This document shows positions 3,140 through 61,549 of a stretch of 64,000 nt of DNA, one piece after another. The notes under the pieces were generated by a model. That model did not search any database. It was not told the DNA's origin and was given only the letters and a program-made list of their open reading frames with translations. The stretch is from positions 5,210,501 through 5,274,500 of the forward strand of contig CM067314.1 in assembly GCA_034231615.1 (NCBI GenBank), given 5' to 3'. The translations under genes were made by a program, and so were the position numbers. Every line of letters begins with the position of its first letter. Position 1 is the first letter of the stretch. Source of the stretch: Meghimatium bilineatum (Eukaryota > Mollusca > Gastropoda > Stylommatophora > Philomycidae).

Positions 3140-3316
3140 CTGAGAGTCAGGTTCACTACTTATATCAGCCTGAAAGCAAGCATTGCTAACATTTGCCATA
3201 TTGGGCATTTCAGTTTCATTTAATGATGTAATGTTGCCTGACTCATATGTATCATTGTAATATTTGTCAGCTGCAACCTTGATAGCAAGTGATATGGCCA
3301 AAAGATATGTCTGATC
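3140..3316 (-). CDS. Exon 16: sequon-rich segment with a one-base frame problem
   Basis: Acceptor TATATTTTTCAG, 177 nt, donor GTAAGC. Read in phase 0 all 59 codons are open, with sequons NDT, NIT, NET and NVS. Exon 15 ends in phase 1, so a direct join would need the frame that begins DQTYL. That frame meets a stop after a run of five T at about 3299-3303, and four T would restore it. Other readings are a missed intervening exon or use of an internal AG (GTTGCAG) about 55 nt downstream, which fits the phase. Later exons were not found in 1-3139. Confidence 0.65.
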
Positions 3317-6300
3317 TGAAAAATATAACCGTATTTATTACAAACAAATGAAACAATATTAGGTGAAATGAAGGAATGAAATGTACTGGGTTCTTATGTG
3401 ATTCTCAATGTTGTGTCTATTGTCTTTCCCAAGGTGGTTTGTTATCCTCTTGTTATTAAGCATAGGGGTGATTAGAGCTCGAGCCTGTGTTCCAAGGCCA
3501 GATGTGTCGCTTCTGCTCTGCTATGACCGTGTTTGTTCAGGATGTCCCTGACGTTTTCTATCCAACTTTTTCGTGGTCTTCCTCTGGCTTTGTACCCTGA
3601 TCTCATTTGGATATATGCCTGTACAGGGGCAACTTGTTGTGATGCATTCTCATAATATGGCCAAACCACTTGATCTGATGTCTTTTTATGTATTCTGTGC
3701 AATGTGTTAACATTGATGCAGTCAGAGAACATAATGTGTTGTGTTGTGGTTTACAGCTTGCAAGTTGGCTTATGACATCTGACCTCAGGGTGACATTCGG
3801 ATTTCCTTTAGCTTCTACAGGATGGGACAACTAACCCCACCTCCAAACCTCCCTAACTGCCTCTTATAGCATATGACAGGACATAGTGCTGCTACTCTTT
3901 GCTCCATTTTCAGGTCCTGGAAAGAAATTGGTGATGTTTCTGTCAGTCTCAATATAGAGATTCTATAGACTATGTTGATTTTGTTTACTTTTATCTTAAA
4001 AACTACATTTGAAGATATTTGTTAGTATGTTCCTAATATTCCAAAGACAGAACAGCGTCCCTTTTGATAGTATGTCCCCAATATTCCAACAACAAAACAG
4101 TACCCCATGTTAGCAGGGCCTATGTCACCAGTATTCCAATGAATACGGTGGATAGAAAACATCAAGATAACCTTGAACAAACATGGACTAAATGCAGCCT
4201 CTGCGACACATCTGGCCTTGGAACGACAGCTTAAGCTCCCACCCCTATGCTTAACGGCAAGTGTGAATGAGATCAACAATAATTCACCTGGGCAAAGACA
4301 ATAGACAATTTCAATGACAAAAATGCAACCATTGTGTTAGTCATCATTATCAGGTGCTATATCAGCTGGCGTAGGAAATCATGTTTCTCCACAGCTCTTT
4401 AACCTTTCTAGCATTATGTATTAAGATTTTAGTTGTTTTCCTGCCGTGCCAGGTTGTCAAACTGTCTAATATTTTCTCACATTATCGCCCTCTGTCACCT
4501 TCAATCTTGACTGTTGTGACTATGTTCTCCAAACCTCCCTGTCTCATGAAGTGGTCAAAAAATTAAGATTTTAAAAATTATATCTTATGTTAGTATGTCC
4601 CAATATTCCCATGACAAAACAGCACCCCTTTTCTTAGAATGTCTGCAGTATTCCTCACAAAACAACAAAGATTGTATGATATCTTTAAACATACCATAGT
4701 AAATAGATTTTCTCCTTACCATCAACAACAAAACTCTGATCTTCTTTAGCATACCATAACAATTGCTCAATAGTTTCATAAAGTCTTGTCAGTGGGATGA
4801 TTTCCTGGAAAAAATGTTAAGTCATGGTTACTAAGTAAAATATTGTGCTTGCCATTCTCTACAGAAGGGATGGAGAATAACTGAATCGCAGGCTGTAATA
4901 AACAGGAGGATCATTTGGCTTGGCCCACTGAGTACTAAACATTCAATAAATCTAGTATCTTATTGAAGACATTATAAATTTATATTAAATTAATCATAAT
5001 AACATATATATGTGGCTCACGAAAGAGAGGCAGTTACAGCCCTCACATTAGGGGGAAGTTATTTAAATGGAGTAAATATTGTAAGCTAATTTTGAAGTTA
5101 ACAGTTTTGTATGGAGTATGAATGATGCTATGAATTTACAAATAGCCCACAAATAATGATATACATTTACAAATGGCCTGCAACAGATATTATAAATGTA
5201 CAAATGGCCCATGAATGATATTTGCAAATGGCCCACAAACAATATTATAAATTTATACATGGGTCTTGGATATTATAAATTTACAAATGGTCCATAAACA
5301 ATAGTATAAATTTATAAATGGCCCTTGGTTAAAAGGTTCACAACTGCTGCTCTAAAGCTTTAATCCTTCCTAAACACACACACATGTATCATAATGCAGT
5401 GTATGTGCAGGCACATTTAGTGGATGTTCAACTAACGTTTAGCACGCCATAGTCCGAAACTTCTGAAAAAAAATGTGCATATCCCAAATTCCGGCGTCCA
5501 AACTTTCTGACAAACAACATAGGGGCGTTTATAGTGCATTGCAAAGCCTGTTTTGTTTTTACACATAATCGTGGACATACACAGTTGAAAGTCGGCATAT
5601 TCAACGTCCGTTCTCTCTCGCTCACAAAATTTGTACCAGCACGGCATAGTAATTTGTATTATCAAACCAACACCCACGCCATCAAGTTTGTTTATCATTG
5701 AAACCATTTTTGTTGACATTGTTATGGATGCTGATTCAGATGAGGAGGACTTTGCAGACATTTTAGAGGTAGATATCGCACCCATTAGATGATGTGGTGT
5801 TAGATAGAGATAAAAGTGACACTGATTCAGTAGACAGCATGGCTGATGACATTTTTAGGACAAAATTATTGAAAATTCTCGTGTCCCTTCGGGATATAGT
5901 CATGCTTGGCTTAGCGACTTCGATGAAGTTGTTGGACCTATAGGCGTAGCTGATAACATTAATGAGATAGACATGTTTCGTCTGTTTATTACAGATGATA
6001 TTGTGAACATGTTGGTATCTGAAACTAATTGTTACGCTAAGCAGGTTAGTGATTCGAAGGGACAGGACGCTGGCGATTTATCTCGTGTGAAGCTCTGGAA
6101 GGCAGTCACATCTGATGAGATGAAAGCCTTTGTTGCTTTGGTGCTCTTGATGGGACTGACCAAACGATCCTCCTATGATTTATAGTGGTCAAATGATTGT
6201 CTCCTTGAGATGCATGGGTTTAGGAATGTCATGAGTAGGAACAGATTTTTATCTATTCTTTCATTCCTGCACCTTGTGGACAACACAACAGCTGTTCCAC

Positions 6301-9300
6301 AAGGGCAACCCGGCCACAGCAAGGCGTTCAAGATAAAAAGGTTTTTTGACAAACTTCTTCCTCTGTTTCAACAATATTATAGTCCTTCGAAAGAAATTAG
6401 TGTCGATGAAAGCATGATTACTTTCAAGGGTAGAACTAGTCTTATGCAGTACATGCCCAAGAAACCCAACAAGTGGGGTATAAAGGCTTGGGCACTTGCT
6501 GAATCGAAGACTAGTTATCTCTAGAAGTGGAAGCTGTACCTTGGGAAGGAGGATGTCTATGACAAAAAAAGGATTTGGCTCACTGTGTTGTGAGTGATTT
6601 GTTATCCCCTATTCAAGGTAAGAGCCACGTTGTCTATATGAACAATTTCTTTTCCTCTCCAGCCCTTTTCAAGGAGCTTGCCGAGAACCAGATAGGCGCT
6701 TGCGGCACAATACAGTTGAAGCGCAAAGGGGTCCCTCTTGCGTTGAAGGGTCTAAAACTCAAGGCTGGTGACCCACTTCGTACTGCTATAGATGGCAACA
6801 TTCTCTACATGGCATGGTATGACAAGAGGCAAGTAAATTTGATGACATCTGCACATGATGCACAGACCTTCAATAAGAAGGTCTGTACCAAACATCACAA
6901 TGGTAATGTGCGGGATGTGGTAAAACCATGCACTATACAGGCCTATACCCGTCATATGGGAGGCGTTGATCGTGTTGACAAGCAGCTAACATATTATTTG
7001 TTATCCCACAGGACTTGCAAGTGGTGGAAGAAAATTTTCTTTTACATGTTGGAAACTTGCTTTGTGAATTCACTTGTCCTGTGACGGGCCAAACATCCTG
7101 GCAGAGTCAAGGCAGAAGAATTTCGCCTGCAGATCGTTCATGGGCTTCTTGAGGGTTGCCAGTCTAGGCCTTCTTCCAGTGGAGGAAGAAGGGTAAGCAA
7201 CCCACCTGATAGGATGATAGGAGCAACCCACTTAATTGTTCTCAATCCTAAATGGTTGCCCAGTGGCAAACCTTCAACTCCAGACTGTGTAGTCTATTCA
7301 GATCGGTCAAAGAAGTGCCACCAGACTCAGTATGTGTGCGTAGGGTCGGTCTGTGCCCATATCCCTGCTTCATAAGACACCACACATTATTGAATTTTAA
7401 AACTGATTGTACATCTGATCTACACACCAAGTAGGAGAACTCCACAGACAGTAGGTGTACTCCAGAGCTGTACGGCCAGTGGGTAAGTCATTTTCGAATT
7501 ATTTTTCTATCAATTTTTTGGGCAAATAATACCTTCACCTCTTCCTAACATCATCCATAGTTTACATAAAAAAACAAATTCCACACACATTTGCAGTATT
7601 CAATTCTGCATTTACGTATACAAAAATTATTTTAAAATCACAAATAACAAAAGAGTTGTTGCGTTTTCAAAACACCCATGTCATGGTGTTTGCATTTATT
7701 TTTTTGTAAAAAAAAAAATCTTCCTCACATCTCACGTAGGATACATTAAAAAAAATTACATACATATTTGCGGTATTCATTTCTGCATTTACATGCATAA
7801 AATTTATTTTTAAATCCTGTATAACAAAAAAGTTTGCGCAATTCCTGTACACCATCAAAAAAAAATGTCAATTCTCAAAAAAGAATCCAGATGCAGGGGG
7901 AAAATTTGTTTTTTTGTTTACAGTGTGCTAAAGGTTAAAATAAAATAACACAAACAAATCCAAGGGAGATTACAATACACCTTCCTGTCAGTAGTTAAAC
8001 AGATGATAAAAGAACTTTGAAGGAGATTGCCACTCTTGTTGGCTAGGTAGGTGATGGTGCTTTATTTTCATTTCAGATTAGTGTTTCTCTGGTGTTCTTT
8101 ATGATTAGAAAGTCTGCTTTAGATTTTGTTAAGTCACAGGTAACTGTTGCTGTAGGTGCACATAGTGTATAACTATAACTAATGAATAAATGAGAATATA
8201 ACTTGAGGGACTAAATATGTACTAAACCAAAAGAGAGTAATATTAATGTATGCCTCTTGAGTATATGTGTGGGATTGAGAATATATATGAGCATGTAGTG
8301 AATGCATACTAGGAAGTATTGGTCACAATACTATTAATAAGGCATCACAAAATTATGTGACCGAATTTTGTATAATTATGTATAAATGAACAGCAAAGAG
8401 ACTTGTATTTATATATTTGTATTTATGAATTACCTTGATTTGTATGCTTATTTTATGTATTGTATACTCATAGTATGATCAAAAGATGCTTATATTGTGT
8501 ATATAGGTTTGGACATTATTCTTAATATTAAAAATAAAATATAAATTTTTTGTTATTGAAAATAAACATATATATATATATATATAATAAGTTTAAAATT
8601 TTTTTAAATAATAATAATTAATTAAAAAACACAATCCTCTCTACAGAAGCAACGAACATCTATTTGGCACACCATGCAGCAGCCAAGACACTTTAAGAAG
8701 ATGTCCCGTCAGTCAAAACACCAGAAACATAATAAAGGAGAAAATGCAGCACAATAAATAGTAGCCCTGCCAATAGACAACCACTAAAGACCAGACCATA
8801 AAAAGCCCTTCTAAGGGCTACCAAACTAGACTACACCTTAGCATCCCATCACTGTCACTGCAGAAAGGCAAAACCACACCTAGTCCTTTTAAGGACTGCA
8901 ACTAGAAGGTACAGCAGCAAATCCGGCTGGATAGCCAAGTACTAGCGCCAACCAGATATACAAGGCACAAAGAACACAAGTTCCCAGACGCCCTGATATA
9001 ACCAAAATGGATATCAGTCCTAGGTTGAAGGGTGTACCTCGACTAATGAGGTGAAACCATCACTAAACAAACAATATATATATATGTCTGTGTGTGGTAG
9101 GTGGGGACAAGTGATGGCACATCTAGCATTCCACGCCACTTAGAAGTCTGCCACAGAAGGGCAAAGGTGCAATGTCTGCTAGCATGCATCTCTTCATCAT
9201 CCATGGGGGATTATTTAATATAAGACAAATGTAAGAAATTGAGACAAGATGCGACAAGACAAGGATGAAGGGACATAGATGACAGATTGTCAGTCTACCT

Positions 9301-12300
9301 TCCCAAAAATGTTCATTAGTCACCTACTATGACATGCCTGGAAACAAGACACTGACCCAATTCTTTGCTTCCAGAACTAAAAGTCCAGTCCCCAGTTGCC
9401 ACATGGGTGATATGCACACACACAAAATTTGTAGTGTAGTCCTATGTAGCCATCAACCCAGCATTGTTTGGCTGTAGTGATTTTCTAGACAATATAAATA
9501 TGTTCAGTAGTTTGCTATAGTTAACTTCAGTAGTTTGCTTCATTAGTTAACTACGCCTTTTTGGTCATATGAAACGCCTGTTTGGTCATTAAAGAGACAC
9601 AACTGTTTAGAAAGACAAATAATGGAGGGAAGAGTACTTGGGAAGAGGAGAAAGGGCAGACCAAGAAGACGATGGACTGATGACATTAAAGATAACATGA
9701 ATACATAGCTAGAAAATGAAAGCCACATCGCCCACGACAGAGAGAGGTTCAGAGAGTTCATTGGGAAGACAACATTCTGTAAGGAATACATCACATGACA
9801 CAGTTTGTTATTGCTTTCTGAACCATCCGGATGCACAATTGCCTGTGGCGGGAATCAAACTCGGTACCTTGGCCATCACAGATGCGTTCTATACCACTCC
9901 ACCACAAAGACACTCTCTGAACTTACATAAATGCAATAATTTTATGTTAGTATAGCGATATAATATAAGAAAATAACATCAATATAAACAGAAGTATTAC
10001 ACAGAAGGATAGTATTATTAACATTTTTACAAAAAGTATAGGCCTTTTGTTTTTCAAGTACTCACATCCACAGCGAATTCATCATTTAAATCATATAAAC
10101 CTCCTATTGAATATGAAACTGTAACTTCTTGCATAACTTTTACATCTTTGGGCTGGAAATAGACAACGCATATTTCCACTGGAGCCCACAACGTTCTCAG
10201 TAAAGTGTACTCTGAGAATGAATGTAAAAATGGTCAAGGTATTTAATGAAAGCATATGTTGAATTCATAATTTTGATTGAATATCTTATGACATCAGCTA
10301 CTTCTGAATTATTCTATGCTAAAAAGAGTTCCCTTCATTTTAATACCTGCAAACGTGGGTCTTGAGGGAAACCAAAGAGCAGACCGGCTCACTTGGCAAC
10401 GTAGTCACAATGAAAAGGGGCAGTTCAATAGATCATGCCAATATTTTGAATACAATCATGGAGTTGGACCAGTTGAAAGATATGGGATGTATTTCTTCTG
10501 TATCTATGGCTAGAATGCGGGATCTGGGAGGGAAGAGTGGCTAGAAATGAGCGGCATATAGGAGTTAATAAAAGAGTTATCGACCAACACAGAACTAGAG
10601 AAATCAGCTACCACATACTAAAGAATATCTTAAATATATGAAAATGGAGCACCTATAGAGACTTGCCATGATGATGATGATGATGATCTGACGACTAACT
10701 AACAACTTTTATAGTTGATTGAGAAGTTGATTCAAAGACCGAATTCTAAAAAAGCATATCCTGAGAACTACCATACATATTCATTAAATCCTAACTCATG
10801 ATTTTCTGTTTTCAATCACAATATGCATGCAGTTGTCAAGTATGTATGTCCCTCTCATTAAAGGAAATTAGTCTCTTAATCCTCTCATTTCCAGGTGTAG
10901 TTACTGCTACAGAACATTTCCAGGTACAGTATAGTTACTGCTACAGAACATTTCCAGGTACAGTATAGTTACTGCTACAGAGCACTTCCAGGTATAGTAT
11001 AGTTACTGCTACAGAACATTTTCAGGTATAGTTGCCGCTATAGAACATTTCCAGGTATAGTTACCACTACAGAGCATTTCCAGGTGCAGCTACTGCTACA
11101 GAAAATTTCTAGGTACAGTATAGTTACTGCTACAGAACTTCTCCAGGTATAGTATAGTTACTGCTACAGAACATTTCCAGGTATAGTATAGTTACTGCTA
11201 CAGAACATTTTCAGGTATAGTTGCCGCTATAGAACATTTCCAGGTATAGTTACCACTACAGAGCATTTCCAGGTGCAGCTACTGCTACAGAAAATTTCTA
11301 GGTACAGTATAGTTACTGCTACAGAACACTTCCAGGTATAGTATAGTTACAGCTACAGAACACTTCCAGGTATAGTATAGTTACTGTTACAGAACATTTC
11401 CAGTGTATTTCCATTTGACATTTATCATGGGTTTATTTGACCATTAACACAATGAAGACAAAAAAAATCACCAATGAAAGTCACAGGAAAAGTCGAATGT
11501 GTCACTTTAGAAAGATGAATCTCAATTATCCAGCAAGACTATAAATGACAGAAGACGAAGTGAAATTTCCAGTTTTTGTCAAAGATAAAATTATATATTT
11601 ATTAACGGGAGATAGCTTGGTTATCCATTTTACTACAAGGGGAAATGTAGGCGATAACTTCAGAACCTAATATTTCAATAGGTTAGACCTATACAGCAAG
11701 TTAATGTCCTTGATCATTAAGCAAAAATGGACCAAAAATATACGATATTTTCGAGTTTCACAGTAGAATCAATTTTAGTTTTCATGGATAAGAAATTTTT
11801 TTTGGTTGATACTTTTCTGGTTGAACCAAAACAACCAAAGGAAAAAAGGTAGGGATACAGTGTATCCAGAGAAAAAATCAGTGTATTATTATTGTTCTAT
11901 CTATCTATTGTCATTTCTACTTGTGCTGTTAAGCATCTTGGGGAAAGTTGGCCATTTGGGTCACATTGACCATGGTCAATCAGTGTCTATTTAAGGTTTC
12001 TTTGTCTCTACCCATCTAGTTCTGAGTTGTAATTCGATCTTCTGCTGTTGTATGCATGAAGGGCTGGTTACACTTTGTGCATTCTCATGAGGTGGTCAAA
12101 CCACATAGTTTGCTGTCTCTCAATGTAGTCTTGACATGAGATTATCTTTATTTCTTTTCTGATATATTCATTTCTCCACGTGTCTTTTCTGGGGACATTT
12201 ATAGCTTTCTTCAAACATATAATTTCAAATGGTGACATATTTTTCGCTAGTGCCTTTGTCAGGACCCATGTTTGACATTGGTAATACAAAGATGGTATAA

Positions 12301-15300
12301 AAGTACTGTTACAAAAATAAAAAATATTTTTAATGATTTTAAATTAGTGCAATTAATGAAATTTCTCAAATACTTCATCTCTATTTTTTTCCTTGTTCTC
12401 TCTCTCTCTCACACACACACACACAGACACTCACATACCAGAGCCTACAGATATCTTACCATAGATATTTGACATGGGAATCATATCCTGATATGATTGG
12501 ACAATTGTCAGAACAAGAGGGGTTGTGACAGATTTCTTTACAGCAGCAAAGAATACGTCCAGGATTACCTCATATCTAGTGAAGTTGGCAACTAAATCCC
12601 CAGGTTGAACAGTAATGTTTCCTTCTGATTTCAAAATGAACAAAATTTAACGGTAAAACAGGAAATATACTTTCACAATTTTGGAGCACATTTCACATAA
12701 TACATCTTCTATAGCATACATTAACTCATCCTCTACCATGAGTCTCAGACAGAGACCGTATATGTTATCCTCATTGCCATAAACCAAAAGGGGTGACCTG
12801 ATTTGATTTTTCGTAACATCATAATACTACACTTTTCCCTGCCTTACTCTGATCCATCTAAGTTTTTAATTCATCTTTATTACTGCACTATTTGAGAACA
12901 TAGAACATTAATTTGTCCTACAAAATCTTATCTTATGCATCAAATTTTACAAATAAGAAAGAAATACAACAGATGGATGTATATACAAATGAGAATGAAA
13001 ATTAAAAATCACTGCCTAAGTTTAATGTGTTGAGAAATTGGTGCAAAGAAAATTATACATATTTAATATGCAGGCAGGAATGTAGATAACACATTTATTA
13101 TTCCTATAAAATACATGACAAGGTTATTTAAGAGCACAACCTCTCAAGAAATGGAAGAAATATTTGAGAGTACAACCTCCCAAGAAATATTTGAGAGCAC
13201 AACCTCCCAAGAAATGGAAGAAATATTTGAGAGTACAACCTCCCAAGAAATGGAAGAATATTTGTGGAATTGACGGAAAAATTACACATTCTCTGAGACT
13301 ACAATTTACAATAGAATGGAGAAGAACAATCACAATTTAGTAAACATGCTACAAGTACTAGAGACCAACATTACTAAACAAGAAAACAGATATCAGCAAT
13401 CAAGACTTAAAATTATTGTGTTGTGGTTAAGCTGTTGAATGTTTTCTTGAGATATTTATTGCTTTCTGATATTAATAATATGGTAAAAGAAAAAGATTGC
13501 AAAAGAAAAAGATCAAGACCAAGAGAGACTCTTCACAGAAAAACCATTAAAGACTGTATGACTATGGGTCTCAATAACATGCAAGAATTACACACAGTAG
13601 CATCTCATCTCTCGAACTGGAGAGCTCTGGTTTCTATATTATATGTACCATATTCAGGATTGAAGGAAAAAATAAAGACAGACAGGCAGGTATGCAGACA
13701 GATAGATAAGCAAATATTAATAATTTATATTTATTGTTTATTATCCATCTTTCTTACACAAAAAAAGAAGATTTCTGAGACAGTACAATAACACTGAAGT
13801 ATTTAAATATTCTAGGGATCTTTTTGGTATGTTTTAGAGAAGTAGTGTGATCGAATTATGAGAACATGTCGACTCAAGTTGTGAGTTGAATAAGTGCCAA
13901 CTAAACAAACCAGGTTCACATGCTATCTACATTTTTCAGAACATTCTGGTGCAATAGTTAAACCATTTTTCTTTTGTCAAGACATCAAGTGTGAACATTT
14001 TGGAGGGCGCAGAAGAATGATGGTCAACCAGCATAGGATCGGTACTGTCAGCAGAAATGTGATGGCGGATACACTCAAGGAGAGATCGGAGCAACTATGG
14101 ATGTGTCCAGTTTGCAGTGATGATGATCCGACGACTAACTAACTAACTAACTAACTATCAAGGGTTATATTCCAGGTCATGAAATCCTGTTTACATTTTT
14201 CAGAAATCCCCAAGGACTATTGCTTGATTACTCTGCTCAGTTTAAGAATGAAGTGGGTCAAAATAAACCCCCATATTACTCTTAGAAAACAGCTGATTTT
14301 TAAACAGCTGATGACATGTAAAAACAATATTATTTAAAACATTTAAAGACAATTAAAAACAATATTTAAACAACATTTAAAAACAAAATTTAAAAACAAT
14401 ATTATTGGGCATATAACAGAGTATAGCAATGAATTTACATGATAGCATAGTACTCGTCAGGCAACATGCCATTGAGAGGGGCAGAGTATATACAAGGAAA
14501 TCCGTATACAATGAAGCCAGTCCTCTATGTTTTTTTAATCTAAATGTAGTCTTGTTTCCTGAAGATGCTCTATGTGTAAGAATGTGTAAATTAGTATGTC
14601 TCATTTCCTAGTTGGTAAACTACATGCAAATCAAAGAAGAAAGTCATGGTATGTCATTTTTTTACTTTTATGGTTTGTTCTAAAACCACCGCTAGATCTC
14701 TCTTGTAGCAAGACAAATGGTCCAACTAATCTAATCAGCAGTATGTAGTCAGTATGTAGTCGAAAAATGGAGATATGTTATTGTCAGTGTTATATTTGTA
14801 CCAATGGCCCGATATATCCAAAATTGTTAAGGTTGTATGTATGTGGCCAGTGTTTTATCAATTTCATAGAATCGTTGGCTTTCTTAGTCATATCATTAGT
14901 AAACAGGTCCTTTGTGTCACAGCCTGTTTATTAGCTTGCTTACACAGCACATTGAATGAAATAGATCATATGAAGGCAATCTGAAGCACATCCTTTGTCA
15001 CTTATATAAATGCTGATCATGGTCATTGACCTTGTGCCACTGCCTGGCTCACAATTCACCTGACTACAACTGATATGTTGATATGACCTACACTGCGTGT
15101 ATTAATAAAGATAATAGTTACCTTTGAAATAATCTGGAACCATTTTCAACAATTTATGATATCCAGGCAAGCGAAACAATTTGGCCATGTTGATTCTTTC
15201 AAATGCACCACGTGAGCTTATGTAATCCACTGAGGATGAGAAGATAATCTTAATTATTCCCTCAACATATTTTATTCATTGAGGATGGTTGCAAGATGGT

Positions 15301-18300
15301 TAAAAGACATCTATCTATAAATCCATAACGCATTAGGGTCATAGGGGTACTACATTGGGTACTCCTCATTAGATACATGCTTCAGCACACAGTCATCCAG
15401 CAATTTCTATCTTCAACGATAATAATGGTAAACGATAAAGGATGAGTGAGAAAAAATCTTGCCCTGGATGTTGTCTTACCATGTCTTTATTTTCCCTCCT
15501 CTGCTTCTCCCTCTTTGACGGTTCCCTGCAGTATTGTTTTTGACAAGGAATCATGTCTGCATACATGTCCAAACCATGCTAGTTTTCGTTTCATTATTGA
15601 AAGCAATGGTTCTTGTAAACCTGCATACATCTCTATTTTATTTCTTAAGTACACAATTTTTTTATGCTTTCTGTAGGAGATTCGTAGAATTCGTCTAATA
15701 TTTGTATTAGAAACCCTGTAATTATCTCTCCATGGCCACAGTAAGTATCCAACTCTCACAACCATAAAGCACAACAAAAAGCACTAGTGAGCTATACAGT
15801 TTGATTTTAGAAGTTTACATGATTAACAAATTATTTGTTCAGTTACCACGGCCATAGGGTCTCCGTAAAAGACATATGACTGTATAACCAGAACAGAATA
15901 GAACATCTGCAGAGTTATGAAAATCAGGACACAGAAAATCATTAACAGACAACTTCAAGGAATGGATTGGTCACAATGTTTCTACTCTCATTTACATCAT
16001 AGAATACAAAGATTGTTGATGACTATATTGATGCATCCAATATAGTACCCTTATACAATTCTGAGCTTTAATAGATTTTATGGATAAATTGTGCAAATAC
16101 ATAAATATCCTTCATGGTAATAGTTGTATAGCTACAAGACTCAGTATTTCCAGAATTTGGCCATCAAATTTATGTTTTAGTAATTTCTGTATTCATGATG
16201 AATTTAGAAATTTATTTCAAGTTTGGCTAATTTTGCCATACTTTATGTGATATGGCTATTAAATTTCCACTATCTGGCAACCCTGAAAGGATATATGGTT
16301 TATAATATTATGCATATAAAAAGTTGAAAATCAATGAAGACATGAACATGGTGCACCACACCTACCTGTGACTCTTACACGAAATGTTTCTGGTAGATTA
16401 GATCCAAAATCATAAATCAGCAGGTAATATGTATTTTGTCCCTCCATTCTTACACTGAGGAAGAAGATGTATACACATTGTGTAAACAAATATACAACTT
16501 TTTATTCTTTTTCCATGTTAGTTCTTCTTCAGCGTTCATTCTTAAACTTCTGCTGGTTTTCTCTTGCAGCAGGGAAATCGTCCTACTATATGTAGTCCAG
16601 AGAATGAAATTGCATTGTCGCTGTTTTATTTGTGCTAATGCAGTGACAAATACATGTTCGGTAGAGTGTTAGTACTATCTCTAAACTGTTGTTAACAGCT
16701 TTGCTGCAATATATGCACCTTTCAGCCTGACACATCTGACTTCAGCATGGCTTCTTGTTGTTGGCATTCTATGGGATGGAAGAGCCAACACTACCTATAA
16801 AACCTCAATAAATGCTACTTACAACGTATATGACAGGATGTTTAAACAGTCTTACTATTCTGTGCACCCCTATCAGGTCCAGAAACAGAAGCTGTAAATG
16901 CTAATTGTTCAACTATAGCTAATCATAGTATGTGTTTGGGGGGGAACTCCTTGGTATGGTGGTTAAGCTGTTCACTTTGTCAGCTGATAACCTTGGACTG
17001 ATGTGACCAAGAGTAACCCAGAAAAAAAAAATCGGTATATTACAAGTAGACGCCACATGTTTAATTATTTCCCCTGTCAATGTTTGAAAATTTCATGTTC
17101 GTTATTTAATAATTGAAATATTTATTTATTTAGGGCTGGGGTTATGGTTCATCATCATCATGTGCCATGCCGGCTGGCGTAGGCGGTCATGGCTCTCCAC
17201 AGCTCTCTATCCACAGTTATTATGTATCAAGGACGTTGTTTCTTTGCTGTGCCAGGTTGTCAATCTGTCTAATATTTTCTCACGTTATCACCCTCTGTTT
17301 CTGTTGCCTTTAATTTTGCCTGTTGTGACTATGTGACTAAAGCTGCCGGGGTCACCAGGCTTGATAGATTGCGAAATGAATATATCGGGGAAAGAATAGG
17401 TATAATATCTTGTACAGATTACATAGAGAGAGAACATATCAAGTGGTTTGGCCACAATATGAGAATGCATCACGAAAAGTTTCCCGTACAAGCATATAAC
17501 CAAATGAGATACACATGAGATACTTCAGGGTACAAAGCCAGAGGAAGACCACGGAAAAGATGGATAGAAAGCGTCAGGGACATCCTGTACAGACATGGTC
17601 ATAGCACAGCCGAGGCCACACGTCTGGCGATAGAACGCAAGCTCGAGCTCCAATCACCCCTATGCTTAATGGCAAGAATGGATCACAAACCACCTGGGGA
17701 TAGACAATAGACTATGTTCTCCAAACCTGCCTGTCTCATGAAGTGGCCAAAGTAAGTATATTGCCTTTTTCTTACATTGTTACGGTCCGTTTCACATTTG
17801 ATTCTTTCAACACCTCTACATTAGTTTTTCTGGCAGTCCATGATATTATCAACATTCTCCTGTAGAACCACATCTCTGTTGCCTCTAATTTCCCACTTTC
17901 CAGTTTGTTTATTGTCCAAGACTTGCACCCATATGTTAGTATAGGGGTTATATAGCACAGCAGAACTCTCTTTCTCACCTCTAATGACAAGGTCATATTA
18001 CACAGTATATTTTTCATTTTTCTGAATGTTGTTTTTGCCTGTCCTATTCTGCATCTTAAGATTAGATTTAGCATTTTATAATTCTCATTTTTAACTAGTT
18101 TGTAATTTGTTTAGATGTTACTATTTTCCTCATGTCATTGAAGATACTTTTAGCCATTCCTATACTCCTTTTAACTTTTGTTTCACATCTGCCGTCATTT
18201 GTGGCTATGTATTGTGTCCAAGATATTGATAATATTTTACCTATTGGAGTTTCTCTACATGCGCATGCGGTTGTTTCTGTGGTTCTCACCAATGGCTGGC

Positions 18301-34873: not shown

Positions 34874-34932
<59 letters not shown>

Positions 34933-43900: not shown

Positions 43901-46900
43901 TAGAAGTATAAAAAAAGGTTGATGCTGAAAAATACAAGCATTTAAGTACAAAATTATTTTCCCATGAAATGACTAAATTAAAGAATTGTGAAGTATTTTT
44001 GAACTAAATGAAAATACCAATTTTAGAAATAAAAATTTATATCTATTGTCATTTCTGCTTGTGCTGTTAAGCCTATTGGGGGAGGGAGGAATCAGTTTTT
44101 TCATCTTTGACCATTTGAGTTGCATTGGCTATGGTAAGTCCATGTCTATTTAATGTTTCTTTGATTGTTTCTGCCCATCTAGTTCTTAGTTTTCCTCATG
44201 CCTTGTATTTCCATCTTCTGCTAATTTTTGCACAAAGGGCTGGTTGCACAGGTTCTATTCTCATGACATGACCAAACCAACTGGTTTGCTGCCTCTCGAT
44301 TTAGTCTTGACTTGAGATAGTCTTTACTTCTTTCCTGATATCTTCATTTCTCCAGCGATCTCTTCTCGTGGCCTTTTATAACTTTTCTCAAACATCTCAT
44401 TTCACAAACTATGATCTTTTTCGCTAGTGTCTTTGTCAAGGGCCATGTTTGACACTGGTAACACAGAGTTGGTATAAAAATGTTGTTTATCAAATGTATT
44501 TTGTAGCCATGCAGATTGATGGGTGTTTAATTGGAAAGCAGCTTGGGGGTAGTGACCACAGACCAGTATTTCTGGAAATCCACAATGAATTTACCAAGGA
44601 CAGCAGCACGCTCACTAGGTGGAACTATAAGAGGGTAGACTCGAAAATGTACCAGCATTTAACCAGTGTTCTTGTTAAGGACATGAACTTGGACAAAGAC
44701 ATCAATAGAGCAGTGATTGAATTTAATAGATGTATACTACATGCTGCTAGTAAAACCATACCCAGGGGGGCACGCAAAAACTACAAACCCTACTGGAATG
44801 ATGAACTGGAAAAGCTGCAAAATGAGATGGAAACATCTAGACAGCAGGCTGAGAACAGACCTAGCCAAGAACATCACAACAAATATCAGCAAACAAAGGC
44901 TTAATTTTAAAGAGTCAAGTTACAAGCCAGATGGAGCAGCTGGAAAGAAAAAAACAGAGTTGCTGAACCTAGAAAGAGATACTAGGAAATTATGGAAACT
45001 TGTAAAACAACTAAATGACGAAGGTGCAGGGAGAAATACCAGGATCACACTTTATAAAGATAGAAACATTTTAACAGGTAAACATGCAGCTGATTACTTT
45101 GCAGATTCCTTTGCAGAAGACAATAACGTCAAAGTTAGCACAGACAAACAACAGGAGGTTCGAGAGAACCAGCAAAACATTGGACAAGGCGAACCTGTAC
45201 CTGAAGGCGAACCTGTACCTGAAGTCATGGAGGCATCAATCTCAATGAAAGAACTGGTGCATGCAATATCTAAATTGAAAATGAAAAAGTCCCCTGGAGC
45301 TGATGGAGTGTCCAATGAAATGATTAAAAACCTGGGAAATGCAGCAAGAGCAAAGCTACTGCAGATCTTTAACACAAGCTGGTCCACAGGTAATGTACCA
45401 CATGCGTGGAGAGAAGCAATAATGATACCACTCCTCAAATCAGGAAAAGATGGCAACACAGTCTCCAATTACAGGCCCATCAGCCTCACAAGCTGTCTAT
45501 GCAAAACAATGGAACGCATTATCAATCTTAGGATGCAGTGGTACCTTGAAAGTTAAAACCTTCTGGTATCACAGCAAGCAGGTTTCAGACAGTGCTACCC
45601 TACTGAAGATCAGGCAACCTACCTCTCCCAAGAGATTGAGGATGCCTTCCAAGATAAGAAACTGGTACTAGCAGCATGGATAGACCTCAGGAAAGCATTT
45701 GATAAGGTCTGGAAAGAAGGGCTCTTAAAGAAATTGCGAAAATGCAGGGTTAGCTCAAGAATGTACAAATGGGTAAAAGCATACCTGCACAATGGAAGAG
45801 CCAGGGTACAATTAGATGGTCTCAAAAGCAAGAAAATCCTACTGCGTCATGGAGTCCCCCAGGAAGAAGTCCTGTCACCCACACTTTTCTTGGTTTATAT
45901 CAATGACCTAATTTCAGAACTACCACATGGGATCACAGTGGCAATGTATGCTGACGACCTGGTGATCTGGTGCACAGAAGAACATGCGACAGTGGCCACT
46001 AAACAAATACAAAGAGCTGTCAATGCCCTAACCTTAGAAGCAAATAGATGGTGCGTCATCATTAACACAGATAAGTGCAGCACTACACTCTTTACCCTCT
46101 CACCACAACAGAAAGCCGGTCATATCAAGATAGATGGAGAGCTCTTGAAAGAAGACAAACAACCCACATACCTCGGAGTTACTTTTGATGATAAGCTGAC
46201 ATGGAAGCAGCACATAAATAAAGCAACAACAAAAGCCAGGAGGACGTTAGCTATCCTGAGAAAACTAAGTGGAACCACATGGGGAGCCAGTGGAAATATA
46301 CTCAGTAAAGTTTACCAGCACGGCATAAGACCACACCTGGAATATAGTTCAGCTGCTTGGTGTCCTGTATCAAACACCACATTACAAGATCTAGATAAAG
46401 TGCAAAACCAGGCACTTAGAATAATAATTTTTTACTTGCTCAAACTTGCTTGTAATTCAAAGCACAGACAAGCTGACATTTAGATTTTACTGGAAATGTG
46501 GTGTAATATAATAAGCAGACTTTGTTCATCAATAGGGTGGGGGCGGGGGGGGGGGGGGTGTCAAAGTTGAAGATAGACATGTTCATTTGTAGGCCTGGTC
46601 ATTGGGGTGCAATGAGAGATTAGACAGGCTGGTCAGTTCTTTCATAGTTTCAATAGGTAGAGTAATTGACCCAACTGATATATCTAACTCATTACAAGAA
46701 ACGGCATGGGCAAATGATCTTAATCATTTTCCCATGTCCAGAAAAGGAACTGGATTTCAAAATGCACCATTGCTAAATTGTGGGCTTTGAAGAATGTTTG
46801 TCAGTTATCAATTAATGGAGAAATAGAACTATATTCATCATGCAATTGCAGATATACTCAAGAGAGATCAAATCACATATGGATATGTCCTATAAGCAGT

Positions 46901-49900: not shown

Positions 49901-52900
49901 CACCAATGGTTCACTAGACAAACCAACTATGCAACAGAAAACCTTAGTAGATGACATGCCTTTATATTGAGGTTATCTTCTTATAGAAACTTCATGCACA
50001 TCATCTATACAATCCCATAGTTGTAACCTTCAATAACAGTTATCATGTTGTTCCGACAGGCAGATGTTGTGCTTGAACTAGTTACGGGCATGGCGTAGGT
50101 GGGCGGAACAACAAAGAAACATGTCGCAAGGTCCAGAGTTGTGCCCTAATGTCGACATCTGTTTCAGCAGCATTAGACTCGAAATACCATCGAGTCAAGT
50201 GGCTGCTGGAACAGAGGGCGGAGCACTTATGGGAATGCCCCACATGCTGTGAGGCCAGTTTCTAATCAAGAACCAAGAAGAACAAAATAACTACTGTAAT
50301 AAGTTTGTTAGAGATGTACAATTCTGTTACAGTTGTGAGGACTGCAGCAGGATGTGACGATTTTCAAGCCACTCACTGAGACCCCCCCCTCCCAATCTGC
50401 GTGCGATCCGCTGAGAGACCCATCCCTATAGCTGTCCTAAAATGAATATCTCGACCCTGAACAAATGATAAGTAATTATAGACCAATTAGACAAAGGAAA
50501 TAATTTGCACAAAAAAAGGCCTAAATTTCATTTTGCATTCCGCAAAAACTGAGACTTATTTTGTGATAGGACCCATATTGTTTTAAGGCAACATAATTAG
50601 GACACTTAAATATAAATAAATTGTCTATTATATATTGCTAGTGACAACAATAATTTTACATATGTTAGATAATCAAACAAGTAAATGAACAGAAATAAGC
50701 AGCAAGCTAAAAATAATTACTCTTACAATATATGTCCACAAAAAACTGGCCCACAGAATCACAGTGAATTGTATCTGTTTCATCTGGTGAAATCACTTTC
50801 ACATTTATAAATATACTATGTATATTTTCAACAGTCTGTTAAAAATAGTAAAATTTTATTTATATTAAACACCAGAGTATCAGAGAAAATTCAGGAAACA
50901 GGTGTTAGGCAGTGGGTATTATTATAGTAGGTGATGTAGTAGGGAAAGACAGGAATGCTTCTAGTAGGTGATATTGACAGGGACAGACAGACAGGGATCC
51001 ATCACATGTCATGGAAAAAAACTTCAGGTAAATAAAAACAATAAAAAAATTTAACATCCCAATTTCACTGGCGTGTTGCTTGGATCCAAGGAGGGATCCA
51101 AGAATAGAAACCCTGTTTAACCTTTCACACAATAACCTTCCACACAATTTGACAAAATAAAATATCTGCATAGTTCATTGACGATAAAGATAGTATTTTT
51201 ACTAGTCTCACACACTGACCTAAATTTTGTATTCTCCCTCCCTAAAATGTCACATATTGTGCACCTATCCCAAAATAAAGGTCTACCTTCACACTTTGTA
51301 TAAAATCGGTGACAATCCACAATTTTGAGATGTCATTTACTGCCTGTTTAGTCCAAGACACAAAATGGCTACTGTAATCTAAGTTTGTTAGAAATGTACA
51401 ATTCTCTTATAATTGCGAGGACTGCAGCAGGAGTTGACGATTTTTTTTAGCCACTCACTTACAGGCCCCCTCTCAATATGCGTGCCAGAGATGACAAAGG
51501 ATCTTATGGGGTAGAGTTGGCAATTCCATCCCATAAAGGGTAAAAGTGTCCCAGAATCCATGCTAGAGTTGAATATGTCAGGCTACTCACAGTAAATCTG
51601 TAAATCATGACACAACATATTCAGTTCTCCAGACTACACCCTACTAATATGCAGAAAAGAAGAAATATCTTCATATTTGTTTAACATTTATACAGAAAAC
51701 ATATTGAGAAATGTATGAGATGACCAGACCCCAATACAGTTTCATCCAATTAACATCGGAGCACAATAGATCATAGAGATTAGATTAGCCAATGACATAG
51801 TTCTTGTAACAACTAACAGGGAAGGTCTGAAACAACTGATTCTATCAACAGAAGGAAACAGTATATTGGTATATAATAAAACAGTATTGTCGATGTCGAC
51901 TTTTGTCAACACTCCAGCCTCCCCCTTGTCAAAAAATGTCATCCTTTCTCAGACTCCCCACACCCTCCTCCCCTTGCAATTATTAACATAGTTTATGGAC
52001 GGCCTCAAACCAGGTTTTTTATTTGTTCACATAAGAAATTTCTGTAGAAGACAGATGTGTCAAGCCATAGGCACACATAAACCAGCGACACAGTGTATTT
52101 CCATTCTCTGGACTTCATCCTGCTGGAAATTTGGAAGGATTATTGTCCTGTTTGAAGTGAGATACAGAGGGAGTTTGAGAATGAACGCTGAAGAAGTAAG
52201 AATAAGAAATTGTTCAGTTCCGTACATTATCAGCAAGGACATGTGAATGCCAAAGTAGAAAATAATTTTTCATTGAATACACAGTTTCAAACTTCTTCAC
52301 TTACAACAAAAAGGGTGTTGGAACAGCATTCAGTTCTAATTTTCTAGAGTTTCATTGTGAAACAAAAAAGTGTTAGTATCTTAAGTTTTCTTTTTATCAG
52401 AATTAAGCATTATTTGAATATGTACTTTTTCTTCTTCAGCGTTCATTCTCAAACTCCTGCTGGATCTATCCTGTAGCAGTACTACTAGATCTCCAGCAGG
52501 ATGCAGTCCAGAGAATGGAAATGCATTGTGTCGCCGTTTTATTTGCGCCAATGGCCCGACACATCTGTCTTCGGCAGAATTTGAATATGTACTTAATTAT
52601 ACAGTTTTTCTTACCGGGTAAGTATTTTACCCCCCCCCCTCTCTCTCTTTCTCTCTGTGTGGCCTATTGTGTATTTTCTAGGGTGTTGACACTAACAGTA
52701 TAGACCATTATTCTTAGTAATCACAATATGCCATCTTTTGATCTAGATAAACAATCACTGTATATATAGAAGCATAGAGGATTTATTATCAAAGAAAAAT
52801 CGTGATTTTATTAAATATGATGTGATTTTAGTCAAGACTTTCAAAGTGTATATTCCCAAGCTACTATAAATAGAGACTGGTTGATTGACGCACAGACAAC

Positions 52901-55900
52901 AACAACACACACACTGCACAGGTATGTCAATTTCTCAAGAACTATGAATGTTTAATATTAGCAAGTGCATATGCTTCGATACTACAATGACCAAATTAGG
53001 TCTACTTGTAAAACAGGAATAACACATATATAATGTTGCTTCAGATGTGACAAGAGTAAATTGTCTATCCCCAGGTGAATGATTGTTGATAGCATTCACA
53101 CTTGCCGTTATCGTAGGGGTGGTATCTTAAGCTGTCGTTTCAAGGCCAGATGTGTCGCCGAGATTGCATTTAGTTCACGTTTGTTCAAGGTTATCTTAAT
53201 GTTTTCTATCCGTTTTCTTGGTCTACCTTTGGCTTTACACCCAGATATTCTTGTATTATATGCTCTTATTGGTATTTGGTTTGGCTTCATTCTCATAAGG
53301 TGACCGAACCATTTTACTTTGTGTCTCTCAATATGTTCGATACATGATATACCAACTCTTTTCCTAATTTCTTATTTTATCTAGTTTGGTAATCATCGCA
53401 GCTTTCCTCAGACACTTCATTTCACATGTGACGATTTTTCTTTGCTGCGAAGCTGTTAAAGACCATGTTTGACATTGGTAGCACAGTGTTGGTATAAAAA
53501 TTGTTATAGAAACATCTATATCTATTTATCTATGTTCCTTAAGCGCAAAAAATAGGGCAAAAACCAGAGCTCTCCATTCTGAGTAATGTGATTCTACTCT
53601 ATGTAATTCTTACATGTTGTGGAGACCCATAATCATACCCTCTTTGATGGTTGCTCTGAGATCTTATTCTTTTGCCATCTGATACCCATTTTAATGCTTG
53701 TAGTGGCAGTCTATTTTTATTAATTCTAAGTACATGTCCAGTATAAGTCCATTGTTTTCTACAATGTTTCTTATTGTTGTAGAAACATATTGCTGTTTGG
53801 TGTATTCTCTTGCTTGTTTGACTTGAATACTTCCCAACCAATATTCAATAGTTTTTCTATGAATTTATTTTCAAATGAATTTAATTTCTTCTCCAGTGCT
53901 TTTGTTATCTTCCAACTTTCACAACCTTACGTTAATACAGATAATACATTGGAATTGAACAGTTGTAGCTTGGTATATTTACTTATTGTTTTGAATTTCC
54001 AGATGTTTGTTAGCATTTATATAGAAGTATGTATAAATATACGCATATTCTTATTGATAAGCAATATAAAAACTTACTCCATTATCATCTGTTACTTGCA
54101 TCTCATAAATATTGCCGTCAGTGAATCTGTGAGGCACTGCGGTTACCCGGTATAATCCATACCTCTCAAGGCTCATCGCTATGACGTGAACATTTCTGGG
54201 GGATGGATACATTTATTATCTGATATATATTTGTTTGTTCGTTCTCAAACTACTATCAGATCTTTCTTGTAGCATATGTTTCTAATATATTTCCAGTAGG
54301 ACTTAGTACAGAGAATGGAAAAGTGTTGGTGTCACCATTTTATTTATAGCAATGATCTGACACAGCAAACTTTGGTATTATTTATTTTATAACAGATATT
54401 GTTTTACATGATAGTATATATTTATTGTGTGAGACTATGGCACAATTTGCCGGCCTAGCATAGCTTTGAAATGCTATAACAGATATTGTTTTACATGAGA
54501 GACAGTATATATTTATTGTGTGAGAATATGGCACAATTTGCCGGCCTAGCATAGCTTTGAAATGCTATAACAGATATTGTTTTACATGAGAGACAGTATA
54601 TATTTATTGTGTGAGACTATGGCACAATTTGCCGGCCTAGCGTAGCTTTGAAATGCTATAAGAAAATCCCCAAAGAGAAACTCAATGCAAAGAGCTCAAC
54701 AAACACTAGTAGGTAAAGAACTAAGGAAAGTTATGAAAAATGAAATGTGTCAAGCAATATAAACTTCTTTTATCACGTTAATCAGTTACTGGAGAAGAGA
54801 GACTCCTGGATTGTTTATATCATCATCATCATCAGGTGCCATGTCGGGTGGCGTAGGCGGTCATGGCTCTCCACAGCTCTCTATCCACAGTATTATGTAT
54901 CAAAGTCGTTGTTGTTTCTTTGCCGTGCCAGGTTGTCAAACTGTCTAATATTTTCTCACGTTGTCGCCCTCTTTCTCTGGTGCCTTCAATCTTGCCTGTT
55001 GTGATTATGTTTTCTAAACCTGCCTGTCTCATGAAGTGGCCAAAAAAAGAAGATTGCCTTTTTCTTATATTCTTGATTAAGGTCCGTTTCGCATTTAACT
55101 CTTTTAACACCTTTAAATTAGTTTTTCTGGCAGTCCATGGTATTCTCAGCATTCTTCTGTAGAACCACATCTCTGTTGCCTCCAATCTCCCACTTTCCAG
55201 TTTGTTTATTGTCCAAGACTCGCACCCATATGTTAGTATAGGGGTTATATAGCACTGCATAACTCTCTTTCTCACCTCTAATGACAAGGTCATATTACAC
55301 AGTATATTTTTCATTTTTCTGAATGTTGTTTTTGCCTGTCCTATTCCGCATCTTATTTCTGTTGAACTTCTTCCATCTGCTGTAATAATTGTACCTAGAT
55401 ATTTGAATTGGTGGACCTGTTTTAATACTATATCATTCACTATGATCTTGCAAGGTGTGTTATTTTCTTTCTTTGAAATAACCATTACTTCTGTTTTCTT
55501 GATATTTAGGAAGAGGCCTTTCTCTTTGCTTTCTGTGACTACTACTTTAATTAAGTTTTGAAGGTCTTCCTCACTTTTTGCAATCAGAACAGTGTCATCC
55601 GCATATCTCAAATTATTTATGTTATGTCCTCCCACTGATATTCCTGGGATATCTACTATTGCCCGCAATATGTTTTCACTGTATAGAGAGAACAGGTCTG
55701 GTGAAAGCACGCATCCCTGTCTGACTCCTTGTTTTATTTGTTGAAAAGGGCCAAATTGATTTCCTACTCTTATTGCTGCTGATTGTTGCCAGAACATGTT
55801 CTTGATTATTCTTAAATCCTTGCTGTCAATGTTCAGATTCTCTAGCATGTGTATAATTTCGCTATGTTTAACTTTGTCAAAAGCTTTAGTGTAGTCTATA

Positions 55901-58900
55901 AAACAGAGGTACAGATCTGTTTTTACTTCTATAGACCTCTCTATTAGTGTTCTCAATATATAAATCGCATTGTTGGTGCCTTTGCCGTCTACAAATCCAC
56001 ATTGTTCTGGACTTATTTCTGATTTTATTTTGTTTCTCACTCTCTTCATGATGATTCTGAGAAGTATTTTGGTTATTTGGCTCATGAGGCTGATTGTACG
56101 GTGTTCTTCACATTCGGTGGTCCCTGGTTTATAAATGTTTATATAAACATTTAAAAATAGTTTCATGAAGTTAATATTGAAATAATTGTTAATATTTATT
56201 ATATTCCTGGTCCTTTTTTTCATATTTTGTCCTCAAACTCCTGTAGAATAGATGGATGTGGTCCTGAGAACAGGGTTTGCTGTGTCACGGTTGACACCTT
56301 CGTTGCAATATCTTCGCCTTTCAGCCTGAAACATCTGAACATCATGACTTTTGAGTAAATTTGACCCTATATAAATAAGAGGTCAGACAGCCAACTTCAC
56401 ACCATAACCTTAGTCACCTCTTACAACATGCTTGGAGGGTAAACAATGTTGCTATTCTTTGCTCCCCTTTCAGGCTCCGGCAAAAAATATGTGTAACCAG
56501 TACTAAGCATTGTTATGATTTTCTAATGGGCGATTGGCATTCTCTCCCCCTCTAGTCTATGGGATTGACAATTCCCAGATTGTTATAGTGATAGTCTGAT
56601 GGCTAAGCTGATAAATTAACCAGTCTTCAAGAAATAGGCATAGATGGAAAAGACATCAGACTGATTAGAAATATAGATTGGGAACAAACTGCATCAATAA
56701 GGTGTGAAACAGATACTCACCATACATGGAAATAAGAAGAGGGGTAAGACAAGACTGCATTTTATCACCAAGCCTATTTAATATCTACAAAGAAAATATG
56801 TTTAAAAATATATAATAAATGCCAGGACTCAAGATCAATGGGAAAATAAACAACCTGAGATATGCAGATGCCACTGTTCTTTTAGCAGAAAGTGAACATG
56901 AACTGCAAAGACTAATAGATCAAGTCAAAAATTCGAGTAATTAATATGGACTGGATATAATTAGCCAAAAAACAAAAACTATGATAATCAGCAAAGACAC
57001 AGAAGAACAAGAGCTAAACATAAACATACATGAAGAGAAACTACAACAAGTAAAACATTAACAAAATCTTGGACAAATAGTCACAAATGACGGCAGATGT
57101 GAAACAGAAGTTAAAAGGAGAATAGAAATAGCTAAAAGTACCCTCAATGACATAAGGAAAAAAGTAATATCTAAACAAATTATAAAAAGTTAAAAATGAG
57201 AATTATAAAATGCTACATCTACTCTATGTTAATGTATGGCTCGGAAACATGGACACTTAATAAACAATTAGAAGACAAAACTGATGCCTTTGAGATGTGG
57301 GTATATAGATGAAAAGGGAGAATATCATGGAAAGAGAAAGAAAAACAAATAAAGAGGCTCTAAAACCACTTAATATGAAGAAAGAATTATTAAGATAAAT
57401 AAAATATTTTGGACACATTAAAAGGCATGACACCTTATTGAAGACCTTACTTGAGGGTAAAGTCAAAGGGAAGCGAGCAAGAGGTAGACAGAGATATAAG
57501 TGGGAGAGTAACGTAACATCACAAGATAGACAGGTTACAGTCTAGCATAGTGCACCACCAAAATAAGAGACAGGGGATGTTGGAGATCTGTTGCAGCCAA
57601 CCTTTGTTGCGGAGACGGCACTTGATAATGATGATGGCTAAGTAGGCATGATCAAGTGCCTTGCAGTACAAATAAAAATAAAAACATGAACAGATATCAA
57701 GGACTGGACAAAACATGATTTTTTATCACTCTTCCATATTGCTGAAGACAGAAATCCCTGGAGACTCTGTGTGCTGAAGCATTCAATGTGGTACCCCTGA
57801 TGGGTTATGGGTTTATAGATAGATAGATGTTGTGATTTCTCACTTGACACGACCACTCCTCCAGTCGACTCAGCTGTAAATGAGTACCTGAAGCATGAGT
57901 TAGGGAAGGTAAAAAAACAGCAAGGAAGGGAACTGGCCACCCCACCTAATAGTTGCTGCGGCTTAGTACATGAAGAGTTATCTTCATCCCCGACGGCAGA
58001 TGCCATGGAACCTACCTTAAAAAAAAAAAGATTAACAGTTATGGGAACAAAAAATTATGGAAAAGGAAAACACACCATTCACATTCAATTATAAATAATG
58101 TATGGGAAAAGGAAATCCTGGAGAAAAAAAGTAAGAGGATATCAAGAAGAAAACCCTAAAAAATAAGTGGCCAAAGGGGATAAAATAACATCTGATAAAT
58201 AAGTAGCCAAGTGGATAAAATAACATCTGATAAATAAGTAGCCAAGTGGATAAAATAACATCTGATAAATAAGTAGCCAAATGGATAAAATAACATCTGA
58301 TAAATAAGTAGCCAAGTGGATAAAATAACATCTGATAAATAAGTAGCCAAGTGGATAAAATAACATCTGATAAATAAGTAGCCAAGTGGATAAAATAACA
58401 TCTGATAAATAAGTAGCCAAGTGGATAAAATAACATCTGATAAATAAGTAGCCAAGTGGATAAAATAACATCTGATAAATAAGTAGCCAAGTGGATAAAA
58501 TAACATCTGATAAATAAGTAGCCAAGTGGATAAAATAACATCTGATAAATAAGTAGCCAAGTGGATAAAATAACATCTGATAAATAAGTAGCCAAGTGGA
58601 TAAAATAACACCTGATACCCTTTTGGAAAGAAGAGGCTGCACTAATGGGATATTTACACCCACATCAAATCAGTGAGAGCATCGTGTAAGTCTGCATGAG
58701 TGCATATGTGTTTGTATTTGTATGTGAGTGTGTAGGGCTATGCTGTGCATGTGTACATGTAAATAGAGTGAGCTATGCAAATCACAATGAACATAGCCTA
58801 TATATATATAGCTCATCTGTCTCTCATGTATGTTTGTGCATTTCTACTTGTGTATGTGTTAATGTGCATTTTAAAAGCATATATCGACTACATACTTGTA

Positions 58901-61263: not shown

Positions 61264-61549
61264 CTGTATGATAATTGATGAAATATTAAAACCATTATTG
61301 TTATTCTTATAAATTGATGGTTTCATAAAATAAATGGAAATAAAAACGTTTTGAAAGAAGCATGAGATGACATTTTTTGGAACGCTTATTCATGTCTGAC
61401 CATCTGAAAGTTTCAAATCCCTAATACTATTGGTAAATTTTTTTAATTGATTTCTTAAAATAATAACACCTCTGATAATGTATTATTATCACTAATTACT
61501 AATATAACTATAAATAGAAAAAAATAGCAAAATAACTAATATGATTGTT

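Follow-up and report, generated by a model that had tools for sequence, protein, structure and literature searches.

The 64,000-nt stretch of Meghimatium bilineatum DNA analysed here (the window; C17:5210501-5274500, in a genome of 1.61 Gb on 32 contigs) very probably holds the 5' part of a multi-exon REJ-type gene of the PKD1 family, hereafter gene A, of which 16 modelled exons encoding 711 residues fall inside it. Judged by homology, this is a real gene for a polycystin-1-type membrane receptor, and its family is already known. The new points are modest: a tandem pair of such genes, an intact intronless paralogue, and a degenerate GPS common to them.

Exon structure of the window gene

A first search of the window's minus strand for open blocks with splice sites at their ends yielded several convincing peptides, and five single-exon peptides returned nothing over any Pfam cut-off. 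A whole-genome search with the REJ profile (PF02010) gave five matches, one of them inside a 2194-codon open frame on another contig (C11:44617396-44623977). This C11 paralogue is an intact single frame without introns, with a hydrophobic N-terminus and a full channel. The kinship of its protein to the window peptides is plain, and the paralogue served as the template for the window exons. We analysed 264 kb (the window plus 100 kb on either side) and 30 kb around the C11 frame. With low-complexity matches disregarded, tblastn of the C11 protein against the 264-kb stretch produced ordered minus-strand matches from window position 61313 to far below window base 1, as well as a second set of matches upstream of the window gene. 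Exons were placed by a spliced-alignment script that penalises stops, so their openness is partly built in.

The 16 minus-strand exons, running from window position 61295 to 3140, splice into an open product of 711 aa with no stop, its 2133 coding bases lying within 58.2 kb. An earlier note on this DNA had described sixteen small minus-strand blocks of 59-188 nt. Such blocks are indeed present, the 15 exons after exon 1 spanning 59-188 nt, and although that note gave no block list we infer that our exons are probably the same set. The product length proposed there, about 700 residues, was near the mark, and the count of about nine sequons was somewhat low, as we find 11. Each block had been said to carry an acceptor and a donor, which agrees with the AG acceptors and GT donors found throughout, the sole exception being a GC donor (CAG|GCAAGT) after exon 1.

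Twelve of the 16 exons are individually supported: when they were scored against the C11 paralogue with phase not enforced, at most one of 300 shuffled templates did as well or better; their boundaries had been picked earlier with the same template, which makes this test somewhat flattered and not wholly independent. No shuffle equalled exon 1 (61099..61295; score 75 to residues 39-92 of the C11 paralogue), exon 5 (37998..38129), exon 6 (35251..35406; score 145), exon 7 (30513..30700; 188 nt), exon 8 (24893..25002; near the start of the PF02010 match), exon 10 (20093..20221), exon 11 (16366..16454), exon 13 (12460..12624), exon 14 (10066..10211) or exon 16 (3140..3315). One did so for exon 3 (50727..50835) and one for exon 9 (20816..20981), which, like exon 10, belongs to the REJ region. 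For exon 9 we preferred the ends 20981 and 20816 and dropped 21039 and 20881. Exon 16 is the last modelled exon in the window, and the gene goes on below window base 1. Exon 1 contains a possible start codon at 61295; alternatively, it is an internal exon starting at 61263, the position given in the earlier note. The donor end of exon 1 is present twice, owing to a 48-bp duplication (61042-61137) whose first copy has the GC donor.

The remaining four exons (2, 4, 12 and 15) are not significant alone and are held in the model by their context. Template residues 96-136 were initially unplaced, and exon 2 (54078..54195) came top of an unconstrained ranking of open blocks in the gap, with phases that fit (2 to 0); its homology score is 30, where the top blocks in two control stretches reach 27 and 29, and shuffles did as well in 47 of 1000 and 58 of 300 trials. 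Exon 4 (43866..43924), of 59 nt, was equalled by 48 of 300 shuffles. Exon 12 (15122..15229; 20 of 300) fits by phase and length, and its best lone match falls elsewhere in the C11 paralogue. Exon 15 (4720..4804; 84 of 300) has good splice sites and phase, and its lone homology selects another frame. A further block with good sites (7729-7816) was left out, because a block of that length between exons 14 and 15 would put them out of frame. From an 18-block scored run, the blocks 56621-56660, 55226-55275 and 1849-1890 were dropped, and the end of the first block was moved in the final model.

Extent and integrity of gene A

Beyond the window, downstream exons contribute a further 1419 residues and a terminal stop at C17:5112284. 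Gene A as a whole thereby comprises about 45 modelled exons and about 2130 residues, and spans 159.5 kb from start codon to stop, with a median intron of 3.1 kb (counted over 43 exons, exons 1 and 2 left out). The earlier extent of 58 kb therefore falls well short of the roughly 160 kb modelled here. A few downstream blocks near template residues 1495-1560 are doubtful; gene A and its tandem paralogue, gene B, differ there.

A polycystin pseudogene is an unlikely reading of the window blocks. Such a pseudogene could account for the GC donor of exon 1, for the overlap of that exon with the duplication of its own donor end, and for the weakness of some splice sites, of which the exon 8 donor (score 2.6) is an example. 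Against it, neither the 711-aa product nor the 2026-codon chain of 43 gene A exons contains a stop before the terminal one, with the proviso that the script disfavours stops, and in the comparison with the C11 paralogue conservation falls off sharply at third codon positions. Identities at positions 1, 2 and 3 are 54.6%, 66.9% and 40.2%, a pattern that would be expected under selection at the protein level; dS, at 2.36 or outside what the formula can handle, is saturated, which leaves the estimate of selection rough, and dN is 0.48-0.55.

Nor do we think it at all likely that the ectodomain encoded in the window and the channel encoded downstream are two genes, one for a secreted or single-pass REJ protein and the other for a polycystin channel. 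Precedent exists in the sea urchin, where SpREJ1 and SpREJ2 are without a large transmembrane (TM) region as far as the available text of PMC1934368 describes them. However, the C11 paralogue has both halves in one 2194-codon frame, and in gene A overlapping spliced alignments continue from exon 16 through the last channel exon. A single gene for ectodomain and channel is our preferred model.

Homology and intron phase

Spliced alignment of the C11 template to the minus strand of the window scored 777 in the 18-block run, which includes the three later-dropped blocks. The five controls were the plus strand, the template reversed, two shuffles of the template against the minus strand and one against the plus strand; they scored 121, 134, 132, 114 and 126.

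Agreement of intron phase at 14 of 15 joins had previously been put forward as very unlikely by chance. The agreement itself is there: all 15 joins match in the final model, and 13 of 15 agree when frames are taken from each exon's own C11 alignment, both failures touching exon 15. Because phase was enforced when the boundaries were chosen, the match at 15 of 15 is not independent evidence. The improbability does not stand. At a splice cut-off of 4, phase-consistent chains reach at most 39 blocks on the minus strand and 37 on the plus strand, against 25-32 for six dinucleotide-shuffled sequences; the corresponding values are 113, 106 and 72-95 at a cut-off of 2, and 20, 21 and 10-18 at a cut-off of 5. 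The phase argument therefore carries no weight, and we rejected it as evidence, chains of more than 16 blocks being present in shuffled DNA at cut-offs 2 and 4. The evidence for the window gene is, by these comparisons, homology and not phase statistics.

The ease with which such chains form in shuffled DNA is what would speak for the blocks being open stretches, flanked by splice-like sites, that line up by chance. That account is highly improbable given that 12 individually significant exons are collinear with one intact protein (777 against at most 134) and that the exons continue into channel exons; it is already refuted for those 12 and may yet be true of one or more of the four weak exons.

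An intronless copy and a tandem paralogue

The C11 frame matches Polycystin_dom (E = 2.3e-16) and PKD_channel (E = 2.8e-7). Its REJ domain scored 31.3 bits in the six-frame search, despite which hmmscan of the whole frame at E up to 10 listed neither REJ nor PLAT; the frame has no match in NCBIfam. We infer that this copy arose by retroposition, because every modelled intron is lost and because it lies on another contig. Its flanks, inspected by eye, have no clear poly-A tail.

Gene B is a tandem paralogue that lies upstream of gene A in the same orientation (C17:5302474 to at least 5372769), and the comparisons made with it rest on its C-terminal part. From template residue 1104 on, gene A has 21 acceptor boundaries and gene B 24, of which 18 are common in position and phase, both sets having been found with the same C11 template. 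Pairwise identities among the three are near equal, at 39.6% between gene A and the C11 copy (1992 residues), 43.5% between gene B and the C11 copy (1167 residues) and 44.5% between gene A and gene B (1155 residues).

Domains of the encoded protein

In Pfam at E up to 10, the window product matches only REJ (PF02010; 27.8 bits, E = 1.2e-6, cut-off 25), at profile positions 123-269 of 452, or about a third of the profile. Of the two profiles named in the earlier note for comparison with the spliced product, REJ is accordingly present, and PKD repeats (PF00801) were found in neither the window product nor the downstream product at E up to 10, a listing that is incomplete because HMMER filters drop most matches above E of about 0.1. 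Downstream, outside the window, the product of gene A matches Polycystin_dom (PF20519; E = 8.2e-21) and PKD_channel (PF08016; E = 1.3e-9), which together with the REJ match upholds the polycystin/REJ-type identity first proposed; a PLAT match there reaches 17 bits, under the Pfam cut-off of 23.

Downstream, gene A encodes in order a GPS-like region, a single TM helix, a putative PLAT-like domain, and ten more hydrophobic helices with the polycystin domain and the channel core. By hydropathy, gene A modelled without exons 1 and 2 has 13 segments, the C11 frame 14 and the partial gene B 9. Those of gene A may be interpreted as 11 TM helices, a pore helix and a weak segment in the ectodomain, in the expected order, and those of the C11 frame in the same way, as 11 TM helices and a pore helix plus one or two others. 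Compared with solved structures, a profile of the three paralogues matches 20 distinct sequences at E up to 0.001, including polycystin-2 (E = 1.8e-18), polycystin-1 (6a70_B; E = 3.7e-14, from TM1 through the PLAT stretch), PKD1L3 (7d7e_A; E = 4.5e-13) and PKD2L1. The polycystin domain and pore region of polycystin-2 (PKD2, PKD2L1) align with this profile. Gene A, gene B and the C11 paralogue have an invariant LET, in contrast to the LGD of PKD2 with which it aligns and which we take to be the PKD2 filter. PKD2 is not known to contain REJ, GPS or PLAT.

Cleavable GPS motifs read HL|S/T before TM1. The GPS-like cysteine-rich segment of the snail proteins keeps its cysteines and reads CICDRG in gene A, CRCDRG in gene B and CRCDKG in the C11 paralogue, so that all three have CxCD(R/K)G where the motif has HL|T; the GPS profile PF01825 was found in neither gene A nor the C11 frame in Pfam at E up to 10. 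Because of this replacement in three paralogues, the protein of the window gene is probably not self-cleaved at the GPS, unlike polycystin-1 and SpREJ3, for which cleavage there is described in the available part of PMC1934368.

Comparison with known relatives

Gene A is like the polycystin-1 family (PKD1, PKD1L1-3; 6a70_B, 7d7e_A) in its partial REJ match, its putative PLAT-like domain after TM1, its roughly 11 TM helices, its polycystin domain and its channel core. It differs in lacking detected PKD (PF00801) repeats, in a GPS-like segment without the cleavage residues, and in length, at about 2130 residues against about 4300 given for human PKD1 in the accessible text of PMC5318412.

With PKDREJ and the sea urchin proteins SpREJ3 and SpREJ4, gene A has in common REJ plus an 11-TM polycystin architecture, and no PKD repeats are given for human PKDREJ either, as far as the available text of PMC1934368 goes. 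The same text calls human PKDREJ intronless, as the C11 paralogue is, and testis-expressed, and gives 20-52 exons for the sea urchin REJ genes. The window gene is unlike PKDREJ and the sea urchin REJs in its roughly 45 modelled exons and degenerate GPS. The sources conflict on PKDREJ, which PMC5318412 counts among large multi-exon genes; that paper also found no pkdrej in the teleost genomes examined there. The listed titles and abstract beginnings of literature on REJ in molluscs or octopus and on polycystin in snail and sperm contained nothing on the window gene, and in the retrogene literature PKDREJ is not mentioned among the matches listed.

Intron content and other loci

The introns had been described as transposon-filled, and we do find a transposase ORF and two reverse-transcriptase regions between exons. 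Intron 1 contains a minus-strand reverse-transcriptase ORF (54832..56232; RVT_1, E = 1.8e-37). Intron 3 has a plus-strand reverse-transcriptase element region (44428..46483), where RVT_1 matches at E = 5e-25 on 45557-46483 and E = 0.0036 on 44717-45556 and has no match on 44428-44904. The transposase fragment is in intron 14, on the plus strand (6563..7084; DDE_Tnp_1_7, E = 4.9e-33). There are also intronic tandem arrays at 26827-28274 (a 177-bp unit in 8.2 copies, 98% matches), 58161-58617 (a 35-bp unit x13), 10886-11408 (189-bp and 34-bp units) and 34719-35001 (TAGAT x60).

Elsewhere in the genome, the other REJ-domain matches at C23:34794482-34806920, C23:52737799-52738149 and C1:104256505-104256636 are probably three further REJ-type loci, and a cluster of PLAT-domain matches lies on the minus strand at C21:40205665-40388437. 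PF14830, which we take to be the molluscan haemocyanin domain, has 50 genome matches, with clusters at C15:48.69-49.24 Mb and C22:44.15-44.27 Mb, and no match in 14 control genomes, the kinds of which are not given. The two clusters are consistent with duplicated chromosomes; for the stylommatophorans Deroceras and Achatina, 31 chromosomes and an ancestral genome duplication are described in the available part of PMC12506671, a pattern that the two clusters fit.

Proposed function and implications

On the model of its family, the protein of gene A would sit in the plasma or ciliary membrane with the glycosylated ectodomain encoded in the window on the outside. This ectodomain would sense an extracellular ligand or force, and the signal would pass via the TM bundle to a cation conductance, with a PKD2-type subunit as the probable partner in a complex. 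By analogy with REJ proteins and PKDREJ, the protein may plausibly act in germ cells.

The work shows that an intronless paralogue from the same genome can serve as template for reassembling a large receptor gene whose exons are dispersed through 160 kb of repeats. The REJ-polycystins, which are linked to sperm-egg recognition and to kidney disease, gain from it a tandem pair and an intronless copy. We put forward tentatively, and with some doubt, that REJ-type polycystins have become intronless conserved retrogenes more than once, in the mammalian PKDREJ lineage and independently in land snails (C11:44617396-44623977), and that the snail genes lost GPS self-cleavage ahead of the divergence of the copies, the receptors signalling as one uncut chain. 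If the independent retroposition and the common loss of the GPS are true, these genes would allow natural tests of what makes REJ genes become intronless and of whether polycystin-1-type proteins need cleavage.
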